This document shows, piece by piece, positions 15,105 to 57,733 of a stretch of 64,000 bases of DNA. Under the pieces are notes generated by a model. It worked only from the letters and a program-made list of their open reading frames with translations. It had not been told where the DNA came from and searched no databases. Location of the stretch: the NCBI GenBank assembly GCA_023623175.1, contig JAMNXU010000018.1, forward strand, positions 1-64,000. The letters run 5' to 3'. A program made the position numbers and the translations under genes. The first letter of the stretch is position 1, and the number at the start of each line of letters is the position of its first letter. The stretch is from Bacillota bacterium (lineage in GTDB: Bacteria > Bacillota > Clostridia > Acetivibrionales > JAMNXU01).

Positions 15105-16382
15105 GTGAAGGAGCTGTTGAATCAAATGATTGGCAAAAACGGGATACGCGTCATTTATGGCAATGATCCCGGGCAGATGGTGAAAGAGCTGCTCGAGGCC
15201 ATCAGACCCGAGGAGGATATAGACAGGGGCGCGCTCATTGGCATTAAGCCGAATCTTGTCCTCGCAAAGCCCTCGGCTAGCGGGGCGACAACCACCCCGG
15301 AGATCGTGGAGGGCGTCATTGAGTATTTGCAGGCGAAGGGTTTTGACAAGATAGTGATCATGGAAGGCTCATGGGTCGGGGACAGGACTCCTGAGGCGTT
15401 CAGGGTCTGCGGGTACGAAAGGTTGTCGAAGAAATATAATGTGCCGCTCGTCGACCTTCAGAAAGACAGGTACAGGGCATTTGAAGTAAACGGGATGAAA
15501 ATTAACGTTTGTGAGCATGTGGCAAAGGTTGATTACTTGATTAACGTACCCGTGCTTAAGGGCCACTGCCAGACTAATATTACATGTGCGTTGAAGAACA
15601 TGAAAGGGTGCATTCCCGACTTTGAAAAAAGAAGATTTCACTCGATGGGTTTACATAAACCAATTGCATATTTAAACAAGATCATAAAGCAGGACCTCAT
15701 AATCGTTGACGGAATGAACGGCGACCTCAATTTCGAGGAAGGCGGAAACCCGGTACCGATGAACAGGATAATCGCGGGGAAGGACCCGGTGCTTGTGGAC
15801 GCCTACGCGGCTCAGCTGATGGGGTACGACATCAAAGAAATTCCGTATATTTCAATTGCCGAAAGTATCGGCGTAGGTTCGGCAGATTTGGCGAGCGCGG
15901 ATATTGTTGAACTCAACAGTGACATTTTGCCCGGGGGTTGTGCTGACAGAAACGGAGAGGGCAAGATTAAAATGAGACCTTCGGGAAGAGTGCGGCAGCT
16001 GTCACGGTATATTGTCGAGGACAGCGCGTGCTCGGCCTGCTACGGAAGCCTGATCCATGCGCTGGAGAGGCTTGATGAAAAGGGCCTTCTAAGAAGGCTG
16101 AATGAAAAACTGTACATAGGCCAGGGGTTCAGAAACAGGCCTTTTGCCAGGGAAGCAGATAGGCAATTTAATGTCGGAGATACAGGCACGGGAACGGGAG
16201 AAGGATCGGGAACAGGAACGCGGGAAAGAACGGGAGCAGGAACGGAAATGGACGCAGGAGAGGGGATGTGCACGGGAATAGGCATAGGCGCATGCACATC
16301 GGGATTTGCAAGGTGCGTCAGGGGCTGTCCTCCGAAGGCCAGGGATATCGTGGAATATATAGAGAAACATTTGCGTGGATGA
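15105..16382 (+). CDS. DUF362 Fe-S protein with Gly/Thr-rich insert
   Basis: A DUF362 protein of up to 425 residues. The start is GTG 15105 or, with AAGGAG at 15108-15113, ATG 15126. IGIKPNLV, TTTPEIVEGVIEYL, VLKGHCQTNITCALKNMKG and DGMNGDLNFEEGG follow the order of the family, whose members bind an iron-sulfur cluster. The C-terminal cysteine region (CSACYGS, then CVRGCPPKARDI) should hold a cluster but lacks the full ferredoxin pattern. Between the two halves a low-complexity segment of about 30 residues (359-388; GTGTGEGSGTGTRERTGAG) is inserted, encoded by irregular GGAACGGGA-type repeats. Such an insert is unusual in this family. The partner and reaction are unknown; an Fe-S chemistry or carrier role is inferred. 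Confidence 0.82.
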   Translation: MKELLNQMIGKNGIRVIYGNDPGQMVKELLEAIRPEEDIDRGALIGIKPNLVLAKPSASGATTTPEIVEGVIEYLQAKGFDKIVIMEGSWVGDRTPEAFRVCGYERLSKKYNVPLVDLQKDRYRAFEVNGMKINVCEHVAKVDYLINVPVLKGHCQTNITCALKNMKGCIPDFEKRRFHSMGLHKPIAYLNKIIKQDLIIVDGMNGDLNFEEGGNPVPMNRIIAGKDPVLVDAYAAQLMGYDIKEIPYISIAESIGVGSADLASADIVELNSDILPGGCADRNGEGKIKMRPSGRVRQLSRYIVEDSACSACYGSLIHALERLDEKGLLRRLNEKLYIGQGFRNRPFAREADRQFNVGDTGTGTGEGSGTGTRERTGAGTEMDAGEGMCTGIGIGACTSGFARCVRGCPPKARDIVEYIEKHLRG

Positions 16383-16480
16383 AAAGGTGCATGTATGAAG
16401 TAATGCATGTAGGAAGCAGTGCATGATGAAAATGGCATGACGAAAAAGTGCATGATGAAGAAGTGCATGGATGAAGAGGG
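16376..16480 (+). repeat. Degenerate GTGCATGATGAA repeats
   Basis: From the stop of the DUF362 gene the sequence repeats (G)TGCATG(A)TGAA-like units six or seven times with variable spacing (16388, 16404, 16420, 16432, 16449, 16463). The array keeps no open frame in register. The remaining gap to 16612 shows nothing else. Confidence 0.6.
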
Positions 16481-17512: not shown

Positions 17513-17671
17513 TTGACAAAACGGTTAACCAACCGGATGAAAAACAGGCCGGAAAAGAGCCGGCTGAAAAGCAGGCTGGAAAAAGAGCTGGCTAAAAAAG
17601 GCTGGAAAAAGAGTCGGCCAAGGCGGGCTGGAAAAAGAGCCGGCAAAAACAGGCCGCGAAAAGGAGGATGA
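17513..17671 (+). repeat. GGCTGGAAAAAGAG repeat array with a basic 52-codon frame
   Basis: From about 17528 to 17655 the sequence GCCGGAAAAGAG / GCTGGAAAAAGAG recurs six times. One frame stays open from TTG 17513 to TGA 17669 and would encode a 52-residue, extremely basic peptide (Arg and Lys over half, with segments such as KSRPRRAGKRAGKNRPRKGG). The TTG has no convincing ribosome site and the stop overlaps the ribosome site of the rubrerythrin gene. Array or leader peptide are both possible; I regard it mainly as repeat DNA. Confidence 0.45.
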
Positions 17672-18959: not shown

Positions 18960-19481
18960 ATGATGGTGCAGCAAAAAGGAGCGCGTCTGCTGCATTCCTG
19001 CTTGAATATGAGAAGACAGTTGAACAGGCTGCTGAGCAACGGAGACCTCACCCAGGGGGAGTACCTGGTATTGCGGAATCTGTGGCTCTCAGGCAGTGAC
19101 TCGGATCCCAGCCTGCCGGGTTCCCGCAGCGAAGGACATAATAAAGGAAGGCACGTTAAAGCTGCTGATCTTTCGGATATGCTTGAATTGTCAAGGCCGT
19201 CAATTACCCGCATTCTCAATGACCTGGAACACAGGGGATTCATCACGCGAAGCATTGACAAGAAAGACAGGAGGAGTATAAGGATTGAACTGACCCAGGC
19301 TGGTGCTGAAGCCCTTGAAAAGGCGAACAGGAGGATACTGGGCATTGCCGAAAGGCTTGTTGTTTCACTGGGCGAAACCGATACGGATAAACTGATTGAG
19401 CTCATGGACAGGCTTGCGGAAATTTACAGGGAACTGCTTGAAGAAAGGCGGGGTGAAAGCGATGAGCAAAACAGCGAATGA
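18960..19481 (+). CDS. MarR-family transcriptional regulator
   Basis: A 173-residue regulator, ATG 18960 behind TTGGAGG. After the first helix (ARLLHSCLNMRRQLNRLL) and the TQGEYLVLRNLW helix there is a 25-residue hydrophilic insertion (SGSDSDPSLPGSRSEGHNK), then the winged helix: AADLSDMLELSRPSITRILN, HRGFITRSIDKKDRRSIRIE (about 68-112), then the dimerisation helices. The wing residues DKKDRR are typical. It likely represses its own operon through the palindrome over the promoter and may respond to a ligand processed by the esterase. Its 3' end overlaps the esterase gene by 20 bases. Confidence 0.9.
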   Translation: MMVQQKGARLLHSCLNMRRQLNRLLSNGDLTQGEYLVLRNLWLSGSDSDPSLPGSRSEGHNKGRHVKAADLSDMLELSRPSITRILNDLEHRGFITRSIDKKDRRSIRIELTQAGAEALEKANRRILGIAERLVVSLGETDTDKLIELMDRLAEIYRELLEERRGESDEQNSE

Positions 19482-20760
19482 GAAGGATAGAAGCAAAGGG
19501 ATGGCGGGCAAAAGCGATGGTATGGCGGAAAACAGGAAGGGGATTGCCGGAAACAAGGCAGATATTGCTGAAGCACGGGAATGGATTGCCGGAAACAGTG
19601 CAGATATCGCGAAAGACAGTAAGGTGATAGCTGGAAACAGGGGAGAGGTCGCTGAAAACAGAAAAGAGGTTGCAGGAGACGGTGAAGGGATTGCAGGGAG
19701 CAGAAAAGCGATTACAGAAGACAGAGAAGAGATTATTGGAGACAGAAAAGCGATTGTAAAAAACCGGGAAGAACTTGCCAATAGCAGGAAACATCTTATT
19801 GAAAACGGAAAAGAAATTTCTGATAACAGGGAAAAGATTATTAAACGCGGTAGAAAAAAGTCCGCCATTTGGATTGCGCTATTGATACTGGTTGCCGCCG
19901 TGGCAGCCGGAGGTTTTTGGCTTGCGTCCGGGGATCGCAAGAATGAAACTTTTATGCAGGGCATTTTGACAATCGGTGGCAACAGCAACATCAGGCTGCT
20001 GAAACAATTGAATGACAACTGGAAGCTGCCCGGGGATTATTCCCTGGAAGTCATCGAGGCTGGCGGGCTTGTAATGGAATGGGTGCAGAAAAAAGACGCC
20101 AAGCCCGACAAGGCAATACTGCAGCTCCACGGAGGTGCTTACACCCGTTCACTGAAGGATAACGGGACGACATACCGCCGCTCAGCGGTGCAATACGCCA
20201 GGTTGAGCGGAGCGGGAGTTCTGACCGTGGATTACCGCGTTGCCCCGGAACATCCTTATCCCGCTGCATTGGAAGATGCCGTCCGGGCATATGAATGGCT
20301 CCTGGACCAGGGATATCTGCCTGAAAATACCATAATAGCGGGAGATTCCGCCGGTGGAGGACTGACGCTGGCGACCGCCCTTTATATCAGGGATAACGAC
20401 ATGCCGATGCCAGCGGCGCTGATAACCATGTCCGCATGGACAAATCTTAAGTACAGGCGCTGGATTCCCCCTTATGCAGGAGATGATCGCGCTGACAATC
20501 CTTATATTTCACCGTTCTACGGGGAGTTTCACGATTTTCCTCCCATGCTGATGCAGGTGGGCGGGGATGAAATGCTTCTGGACGACACTGTAAAAGTCGC
20601 GCAGAAAGCCAGGGAAGCGGGAGTCGCGGTGGTGCAGACAACATACCCCGGCATGTTCCACGTGTTCCAGATGCTTTTTCCGGAATTGCCCGACGCCAAC
20701 AGGGCGTGGGAAGAAGTGGAGGCGTTTATAAAAACCGTTTACGGCACCGCTGCCAATTGA
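19462..20760 (+). CDS. Membrane-anchored alpha/beta hydrolase with heptad-repeat N-terminus
   Basis: A 432-residue protein, ATG 19462. Residues about 13-130 are 15 or more seven-residue repeats of the type GIAGNKADIAE / VIAGNRGEVAE / AITEDREEIIG, a long coiled coil. A single membrane helix (134-156, AIWIALLILVAAVAAGGFWL) follows, with the basic RGRKK on its N-terminal side, so the coil should be cytoplasmic and the enzyme outside. The enzyme is an alpha/beta-hydrolase of the hormone-sensitive-lipase (fold-3) type: oxyanion HGGAY (from 223), nucleophile GDSAGGG (S296), acid in GGDEMLLDD (about 368) and H399 in FHVF. It would hydrolyse short acyl esters. The repeat-plus-esterase arrangement is not one I know. 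Confidence 0.85.
   Translation: MSKTANEKDRSKGMAGKSDGMAENRKGIAGNKADIAEAREWIAGNSADIAKDSKVIAGNRGEVAENRKEVAGDGEGIAGSRKAITEDREEIIGDRKAIVKNREELANSRKHLIENGKEISDNREKIIKRGRKKSAIWIALLILVAAVAAGGFWLASGDRKNETFMQGILTIGGNSNIRLLKQLNDNWKLPGDYSLEVIEAGGLVMEWVQKKDAKPDKAILQLHGGAYTRSLKDNGTTYRRSAVQYARLSGAGVLTVDYRVAPEHPYPAALEDAVRAYEWLLDQGYLPENTIIAGDSAGGGLTLATALYIRDNDMPMPAALITMSAWTNLKYRRWIPPYAGDDRADNPYISPFYGEFHDFPPMLMQVGGDEMLLDDTVKVAQKAREAGVAVVQTTYPGMFHVFQMLFPELPDANRAWEEVEAFIKTVYGTAAN
19498..19852 (+). repeat. Diverged 21-bp repeats coding for heptads
   Basis: The 5' part of the esterase gene consists of imperfect 21-bp units (GGAAACAGG/GAAAACAGA..GATTGCCG type), so the protein repeat arose by tandem DNA duplication and later diverged by substitutions that keep the I/V-A-x-N/D-R pattern. 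Confidence 0.7.
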
Positions 20761-36741: not shown

Positions 36742-37025
36742 ACGAGGTGACGGTTCTCTTGTCCCGGGAATGGGGCAAGAGAACCGTCTCTGTGTCCCAG
36801 GGGAATGTATCACGGGAGCGGGAGATGGGAACTGCTCCCATGTCCTAATGCGTGTGTGGGACAAGAGAACCGTCCCCGTGTCCCAAGAGAACCGTCCCCG
36901 TGTCCCAAGAGAACCGTCCCCGTGTCCCAATGCGTGTGTGGGACAAGAGAACCGTCCCCGTGTCCCACGGGAGAACCGTCCCCCTGTCCCGGGAATGGGA
37001 CAGGAGAACCGTCCCCTTGTCCCAG
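36742..37025. repeat. Cluster of eight GGGACA hairpin repeat copies
   Basis: The core AGAGAACCGTCCCCGTGTCCC recurs in forward direction at about 36778, 36862, 36885, 36908, 36948, 36971 and 37003, and once inverted at 36746-36766. Pairs of copies form head-to-tail runs, and GGGACA...TGTCCC ends let each copy fold. Two CAATGCGTGTGTGGGAC linkers are also repeated. The region codes for nothing supportable. Confidence 0.9.
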
Positions 37026-39574: not shown

Positions 39575-40675
39575 ATGAGCAGAGTCATGTTTAATACACT
39601 CATAAATGAAACTTCCGTAAAAGATACTCCAGTAAAAGACACTCCAGTAAAAGATAACCACATTTTCCGCCTGACCGATGATACGGGAATGCTGCAGCAC
39701 TCGAAGTATACTTTGCCCGATCCCGGCCACGGGTACACCACCGACGACAATGCCAGGGCCCTGATTATGGCGCTGATGCTTTATGAAAGGTACGGCAGGA
39801 AAGAATATCTCGACCTTGCTTACCGATACGCCTCCTTTTTGCTGAATGCGCAAAATGAAAGGGGCAAATTCAGGAACTTCATGGGGTATGACAGGAAATG
39901 GCTCGAGGAAGAAGGTTCGGAGGATTGCTTCGGAAGATGCCTGTGGGCCCTGGGGTTTGCCCTTTCCTGCGGGAATACGCCCAAGGGACTTAAGTACGGC
40001 CTTTCGCACATTTTACAGAGAGCGTTGCCCAATGCGGCCAATCTCAAATCACCCAGGGCTAAAGCATACTCGATTGTCGGCCTTGCATGCCTCGGAGGCG
40101 AAGCTGAAACCGGCATCGTACGCGAACTGGCGCAGTCCCTCTGCGACCAGTATGATATGTATAGAGACAGTGACTGGAAATGGTTTGAGAATATTATCTC
40201 GTATTGCAATTATGTGATGCCGTGGTCCCTGGTAAAGGCCTACAGGATTACCGGGGAAGAAAAATTCCTTGACGTGGCCGTGGAAAGCCTCGGTTTTCTC
40301 AGCGAGGTAACATTCAAAAACGGGTATTTCAAGCCCGTGGGGTGCCACGGATGGTTCGTAAAGGGAGGCCAGTCGGCGGAATACGACGAGCAGGCCGTGG
40401 AGGCGTGCGAGGGAGTCCTTGCTTACCTGGAAGCCTTTGAAGTGACAGGCAAAACGGATTATCTGGAAAAGGCCGTAAAGTGCTATGAATGGTACCTGGG
40501 TTCCAATTCCCTGGGAACAAGCCTTGTTGATCATGAAACCGGCGGCTGCTACGACGGCCTTACACAATACGGACTCAACCTGAACATGGGTGCTGAAAGC
40601 CTTATTTCATATGTTATCGCGTATCTGAGAATCTCGGGTATTGAAGCAGAAAAAGCTTTTCAACTGAAGCATTGA
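39575..40675 (+). CDS. Alpha/alpha-toroid protein linked to the glycosyltransferase
   Basis: A 366-residue protein starting at ATG 39575 (or TTG 39554), 27 bases after the GT gene. It is helical and Trp/Tyr-rich: HGYTTDDNARALIMALMLYE, EDCFGRCLWALGFAL, WKWFENIISYCNYVMPWSLVKAY, GCHGWFVKGGQSAEYDEQAVE, YDGLTQYGLNLNMGAES. This is the (alpha/alpha)6 barrel plan of glycoside hydrolases and epimerases such as those found beside GT4 mannosyltransferases. Acidic residues in TTDDN and EYDEQ may be catalytic. A short 15-bp tandem repeat encodes VKDTP twice near the start (39617-39646). Reaction unproven. Confidence 0.72.
   Translation: MSRVMFNTLINETSVKDTPVKDTPVKDNHIFRLTDDTGMLQHSKYTLPDPGHGYTTDDNARALIMALMLYERYGRKEYLDLAYRYASFLLNAQNERGKFRNFMGYDRKWLEEEGSEDCFGRCLWALGFALSCGNTPKGLKYGLSHILQRALPNAANLKSPRAKAYSIVGLACLGGEAETGIVRELAQSLCDQYDMYRDSDWKWFENIISYCNYVMPWSLVKAYRITGEEKFLDVAVESLGFLSEVTFKNGYFKPVGCHGWFVKGGQSAEYDEQAVEACEGVLAYLEAFEVTGKTDYLEKAVKCYEWYLGSNSLGTSLVDHETGGCYDGLTQYGLNLNMGAESLISYVIAYLRISGIEAEKAFQLKH
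39617..39658 (+). repeat. 15-bp coding tandem repeat
   Basis: GTAAAAGAYACTCCA at 39617-39631 and 39632-39646, followed by a partial third copy, encoding Val-Lys-Asp-Thr-Pro. Confidence 0.85.
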
Positions 40676-57582: not shown

Positions 57583-57659
57583 GGCAAAACACGAGCTCAT
57601 CAGATCTCTGAAATGCGGATAACTGTGGTGGTACATTGATATCGTCCCAGTGGCCATAT

Positions 57660-57733
57660 GGGACAGAAGAACCGTCCCCGTGTCCCACCTTGGGACAAGA
57701 GAACCGTCCCCGTGTCCCAGTCCCCGTGTCCCA
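57660..57733 (+). repeat. GGGACA repeat cluster (2.5 copies)
   Basis: GGGACAGAAGAACCGTCC.. and GGGACAAGAGAACCGTCC.. each followed by CCGTGTCCC, then a third 3' half (CCCCGTGTCCC). Almost identical to copies at 36.8-37.0 kb. Confidence 0.9.

Follow-up and report, generated by a model that had tools for sequence, protein, structure and literature searches.

Organization of the esterase locus

The analysed window is a stretch of 64,000 nucleotides of a bacterium of the Bacillota (assembly GCA_023623175.1, contig JAMNXU010000018.1, positions 1 to 64,000). It carries a gene of a putative hormone-sensitive lipase (HSL)-type esterase, which overlaps with a preceding gene of a MarR-family regulator (Table 1); a MarR-type gene likewise runs into the start of the esterase gene in eight ortholog loci. 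The ORF, its coordinates and the order of its domains agree with the initial annotation of this DNA, as judged from the sequence and Pfam matches. Related loci were drawn from bacterial and archaeal genomes, plus relatives, and 16 orthologs were aligned with the window protein (alignment A2; 61-72% identity, with best tblastn segments of up to 79%).

Table 1. Features of the esterase locus (window positions)
Feature	Position	Strand	Remarks
MarR-family regulator	18960..19481	+	Pfam MarR, E = 3e-12; 3′ end shares 20 bp with the esterase start
Shine-Dalgarno-like GGGGTGA	19450..19456	+	From the sequence; spacing to ATG of 5 nt
Esterase gene	19462..20760	+	432 aa; heptad tail within the n-region, followed by signal anchor and HSL-type hydrolase
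Heptad array, aa 14-132	19501..19857	+	17 in-register 21-bp units, i.e. 17 heptads; consensus ATTGCTGAAAACAGGGAAGAG (IAENREE); none in readable orthologs
Predicted membrane helix/signal anchor, aa 136-154	19867..19923	+	Hydropathy and flanking charge; AlphaFold2 helix 134-155; KRGRKK directly before
HGG oxyanion-hole motif, aa 223-225	20128..20136	+	Invariant in alignment A2
Nucleophile Ser296 in GDSAG	20347..20349	+	Invariant in alignment A2
Glu370, probable catalytic acid (inference)	20569..20571	+	Invariant in alignment A2; adjoining Asp369 varies
Catalytic His400	20659..20661	+	Invariant in alignment A2

The hydrolase domain matches Pfam Abhydrolase_3 (E = 4e-43), and EstD11 and EstE5 are among the closest structures, both by sequence and by fold. 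It has the features of the bacterial HSL-type (family IV) enzymes: a GDSAG nucleophile, an upstream HGG motif, a C-terminal His and the alpha/beta-hydrolase fold, all of which it has in common with the family IV esterases EstD11, EstE5 and Aes72. The clade of the window enzyme differs from these three proteins in having a signal anchor and an apparent gap between the motifs WTNL and PYISP, and the heptad tail is found in the window member alone. Judged by its sequence, the protein is an ordinary MarR-linked, signal-anchored HSL-type esterase, placed within the HSL superfamily but outside the named GESAG_HSLs subfamily (NCBIfam NF058651), whose curated whole-protein cut-off of 430 bits is not reached by its score of 186.6 bits.

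The phmmer match to the esterase splits near residues 330-338. Compared with canonical HSL-type esterases, approximately 25 residues between WTNL and PYISP appear to be missing throughout the clade (window 20440-20520, alignment A2). Since the same short stretch is present in all of the aligned orthologs, it seems to characterize the clade rather than to reflect damage.

Sequence and predicted structure of the heptad tail

The array spans 357 bp and encodes 119 residues (slightly more than the approximately 115 given in the initial annotation, which had otherwise recognized the tail), in consecutive in-frame units with no indels and no stop codons. The identity of the array DNA with itself is 0.58 at a shift of 21 bp and 0.64 at a shift of 42 bp, whereas 5000 codon shuffles averaged 0.32, with 0.41 as the highest value. 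The array lies above all of the shuffles, which points to duplication beyond chance, as had been proposed from the 21-bp repeats; the larger value at 42 bp indicates a duplication unit of two heptads in addition to that of 21 bp. The mean pairwise identity of the 21-bp units is only 56%, and the array can therefore be regarded as old and degenerate. Among adjacent and next-but-one units, the closest pair is 90% identical.

At the protein level, position a of the heptad is occupied by I (11), M (2), V (2) or L (2), i.e. by I/V/L/M in all 17 units, and position d by N (8), D (4), S (2), K, A or R (1 each), i.e. by N/D/S in 14 of 17. Position b is mostly A, position e is mostly R, and G is found at position c in 7 of the 17 heptads. 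The best PDB match to aa 1-133 is the stalk of UspA1 (2qih; phmmer E = 2e-4), which bears out the earlier description of these heptads as being of the adhesin-stalk type. In the stalks of trimeric adhesins, N at position d forms an N@d layer, e.g. in the OMP100 heptad IAENKKA (PMC4786415). The tail shares with the stalks of UspA1, OMP100 and SadA the I/V at a and the N at d; it differs from them in its predicted cytoplasmic location, in being R-rich at e and in its apparent origin by local duplication. Scans of the esterase protein against Pfam and NCBIfam revealed no YadA-type or other autotransporter anchor, the C-terminus being the hydrolase. Because this anchor is missing, the likeness to trimeric autotransporters is, from the sequence, a resemblance only.

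The net charge is +5 over the 12 residues preceding the membrane helix and 0 after it. At the same place, the N-terminus of one ortholog (L033) reads as a cleavable signal peptide and that of another (L030) as a lipobox-like sequence, which argues for an exported enzyme and hence for a cytoplasmic tail. These observations favor the topology put forward initially, in which the enzyme faces outward and the tail lies in the cytoplasm; the tail is also presumably translated and helical.

Helical structure was predicted in two single-chain AlphaFold2 runs, in line with the initial suggestion of a coiled coil. The full-length run with an alignment gave two helices (residues 18-70 and 77-129) with a break near GDGEG and a pLDDT of about 45-83 over the repeat, the first half of this model being at low pLDDT. 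The run on aa 1-165 alone gave a single helix (residues 4-162) with a mean pLDDT of 85, a value to be read in the light of the fact that repetitive sequences without an alignment are readily over-predicted as helix. The predicted helix bears on a quite different fold, a left-handed beta-roll of the ice-binding or YadA-head type, to which the tail has a weak Pfam match (LbR_Ice_bind, E = 0.0027, below the cut-off of that family) and a weak PDB match (an ice recrystallisation inhibition protein). Both models are helical with no strand, and the heptads offer one hydrophobic residue per seven, surrounded by A, E, K and R; this fold, which we rejected, has a negligible probability.

We also inspected the array for signs of constraint. 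In a neutral star simulation, which ignores shared ancestry among the units, 3.4 stop codons were expected against none seen (P = 0.03), and a hydrophobic residue at position a in 17 of 17 units had P = 0.002. The pN/pS ratio among the units is no different in the sense frame (0.72) than in the other frames of the six (0.66-0.84), so that coding selection is argued from the frame, the stops and position a only. Selection, as a minimum against disruption, appears to have screened the frame and the hydrophobic register. The 56% identity of the units implies long persistence, which fits an adaptive role as well.

Distribution of the tail and of tandem arrays

The tail is absent from all 17 readable orthologs, in which a short n-region, basic in most of these proteins, is followed at once by a membrane or signal segment, with no repeat. 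This number comprises the 16 aligned proteins and L003; L004 duplicates L023, and L019, L029 and L032 were excluded from the count because they have no clearly readable start codon. The tail thus appears, from these alignments, to be an insertion between the initial MSK... and the membrane helix, in a single lineage only. No second copy or relative of it was found in the same genome, and 57 other genomes of the order yielded no convincing relative, the only matches being two of ~22 bits within a single 1479-aa ORF. A search of the literature for esterases with coiled-coil tails or for lineage-specific coding minisatellites retrieved nothing directly on point. In a Lachnospiraceae relative of the esterase (L071), a short EK-rich repeat precedes the hydrolase domain and is possibly an independent N-terminal expansion.

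That homologues do without the repeat is what would be seen if it were untranslated, due to a wrongly assigned start or a dead gene, or if it were an artefact of assembly. We consider this very unlikely. The annotated ATG is preceded by a strong Shine-Dalgarno sequence, and a scan from codon 55 to the membrane helix detected no ATG, GTG or TTG; consequently, any anchored protein that is translated from a standard start must include at least 11 heptads, and a wholly tail-free product of such a start is ruled out. The frame is open throughout and the catalytic residues are intact, which argues against a dead gene. No two adjacent or next-but-one units exceed 90% identity, making collapse or expansion during assembly unlikely. 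Both a downstream start and an assembly artefact were therefore rejected. The initial annotation had set against its own reading the case of a repeat that homologues lack and that is not expressed: the homologues do lack it, but no standard start ahead of the membrane helix bypasses the whole of it.

Several other proteins of this genome contain in-frame repeats. Two of them are encoded by conserved genes of the window. In the DUF362 protein (window 15105-16382), the cysteine-rich C-terminal part contains a repeat insert of 42 residues, rich in Gly, Thr and Glu, that three orthologs with 66-68% identity lack. The protein encoded at 39578-40672 (C5-epimerase-C match) carries additional VKDTP pentads close to the N-terminus, which five orthologs with 65-73% identity do not have, and an FHA/DUF6382 protein of another locus (L105:18094-19998) has a long linker of 6-residue (18-bp) LxKEKx repeats. 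The heptad-tailed esterase is therefore, as far as these sequences indicate, neither a described family nor any family: all readable orthologs are tail-less, the tail is present in one genome only, and the other in-frame inserts have unrelated periods. The sequence reading of the initial annotation is accurate, and its proposal of a new protein architecture is not supported, since the feature is confined to one lineage (17 readable orthologs being tail-less).

Degenerate tandem arrays are abundant in this genome. Their density (TRF score ≥80) was determined in a 379-kb sample of the genome, taken as stretches, and in the window, where it amounts to 10.3 and 17.2 arrays per 100 kb, respectively. 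The corresponding values are 0.8 in G002, 1.9 in the ortholog loci and 3.0 in the Lachnospiraceae loci. Among five further members of the order (80 kb each), four have 0 to 3.7 arrays per 100 kb and one (G039) has 11.2, a density like that of this genome, so that the enrichment is not unique. With ORFs called by a simple, greedy procedure, the period is a multiple of 3 in 13 of 18 arrays inside ORFs and in 24 of 72 outside (Fisher p = 0.006). This bias, together with the inserts in other genes, is the pattern expected from indiscriminate duplication followed by a frame filter. The window has two further arrays: a 26-bp array upstream of a rubrerythrin gene (17541-17666) and a 16/29-bp array that covers and follows the DUF362 stop codon (16378-16477).

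Origin and possible role of the tail

We consider it probable that the tail originated by a lineage-specific, in-frame expansion of a minisatellite within a permissive cytoplasmic segment, the n-region of the esterase's signal anchor, and that it resembles adhesin stalks by convergence. A purine-rich segment of ~21 bp (also 42 bp) just past the start codon would have been duplicated repeatedly in frame, giving rise to the 119-residue tail. The insertion site would tolerate this: the overlapping MarR gene has already ended there, and the DNA encodes the n-region of the signal anchor, on the cytoplasmic side. Arrays of many other periods would have been generated by this process at other places in the genome. 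As 21 bp correspond to exactly one heptad, the product would be a long, stalk-like helix in which I/V occupy a and N/D/S occupy d, and the likeness to the N@d stalks of trimeric adhesins would arise by convergence. By its sequence, the array qualifies as a coding minisatellite, consisting of tandem in-frame units missing from the orthologs. It has in common with bacterial intragenic minisatellites the in-frame arrangement at a permissive position and an intragenic period divisible by three, and differs from them in that its units are old and divergent; the comparison covered a single genome of the family.

The sequence likeness to UspA1 could also mean that the heptads were captured from the gene of a trimeric autotransporter, a phage fibre or another stalk. 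No heptad relatives were found in phages, and no convincing ones in 57 other genomes of the order or in PHROGs; moreover, the units look locally duplicated, with their periodicity of 21 and 42 bp, and the genome builds arrays of other kinds in place. Horizontal capture was rejected as extremely improbable.

Alternatively, the tail would be a functional coiled coil inside the cell, presumably trimeric and parallel, with N@d layers; it would oligomerise the surface esterase or link it to a cytoplasmic partner, and selection would maintain it. The regular occupation of positions a (17/17) and d (14/17), the UspA1 stalk as the top PDB match, the helix predicted by AlphaFold2 and the retention of frame and register in spite of the divergence of the units to 56% identity all speak for such a role. 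There are also precedents: in DUF3782 and DUF1640, as predicted for the window protein, a prokaryotic coiled-coil stalk is attached to an enzyme domain or else to an integral membrane protein (PMC4786415), but these constitute families, nonads and beta-layers occurring in some of them, and no sequence relation to the tail was found. Against this role, all readable orthologs evidently work without a tail, the inserts of 5-, 6- and other residue periods in the same genome are not coiled-coil-like, G stands at position c in 7 of 17 heptads, and pLDDT is low in the first half of the full-length model. We therefore regard a functional coiled coil as rather unlikely, and it is doubtful that, in this clostridial lineage, a 21-bp minisatellite gave rise de novo to a trimeric N@d coiled coil which now functionally clusters the surface esterase from the cytoplasmic side. 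If minisatellite expansion is the origin, oligomerisation of the enzyme by the tail may occur, but is not required by the evidence.

The tail represents a clear case of a long, apparently structured segment appearing in one lineage (17 heptads, against none in orthologs at 61-72% identity), and other genes of the same genome contain inserts of apparently the same origin with different periods. If the tail oligomerises, a sequence resembling a trimeric stalk can arise solely by the duplication of a short DNA segment, and a clustering trimer would be a natural example of a fibre-like domain derived from simple DNA repeats. If it does not, the tail calls for caution in inferring function from repeats of this kind.

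The genome also contains a dispersed repeat, GAACCGTCCCCNTGTCCC, present in 224 copies (106 forward and 118 reverse) and found once in 39 relatives from the order; no paper containing this repeat was found in a literature search. In the window it occurs at 36837-37024 and 57659-57733. At one locus (L166), copies of CCGTCCC are arranged as inverted pairs on both flanks of a Y1_Tnp gene, and GAACCGTCCCCNTGTCCC looks, by its sequence, like a REP-type family with its transposase.
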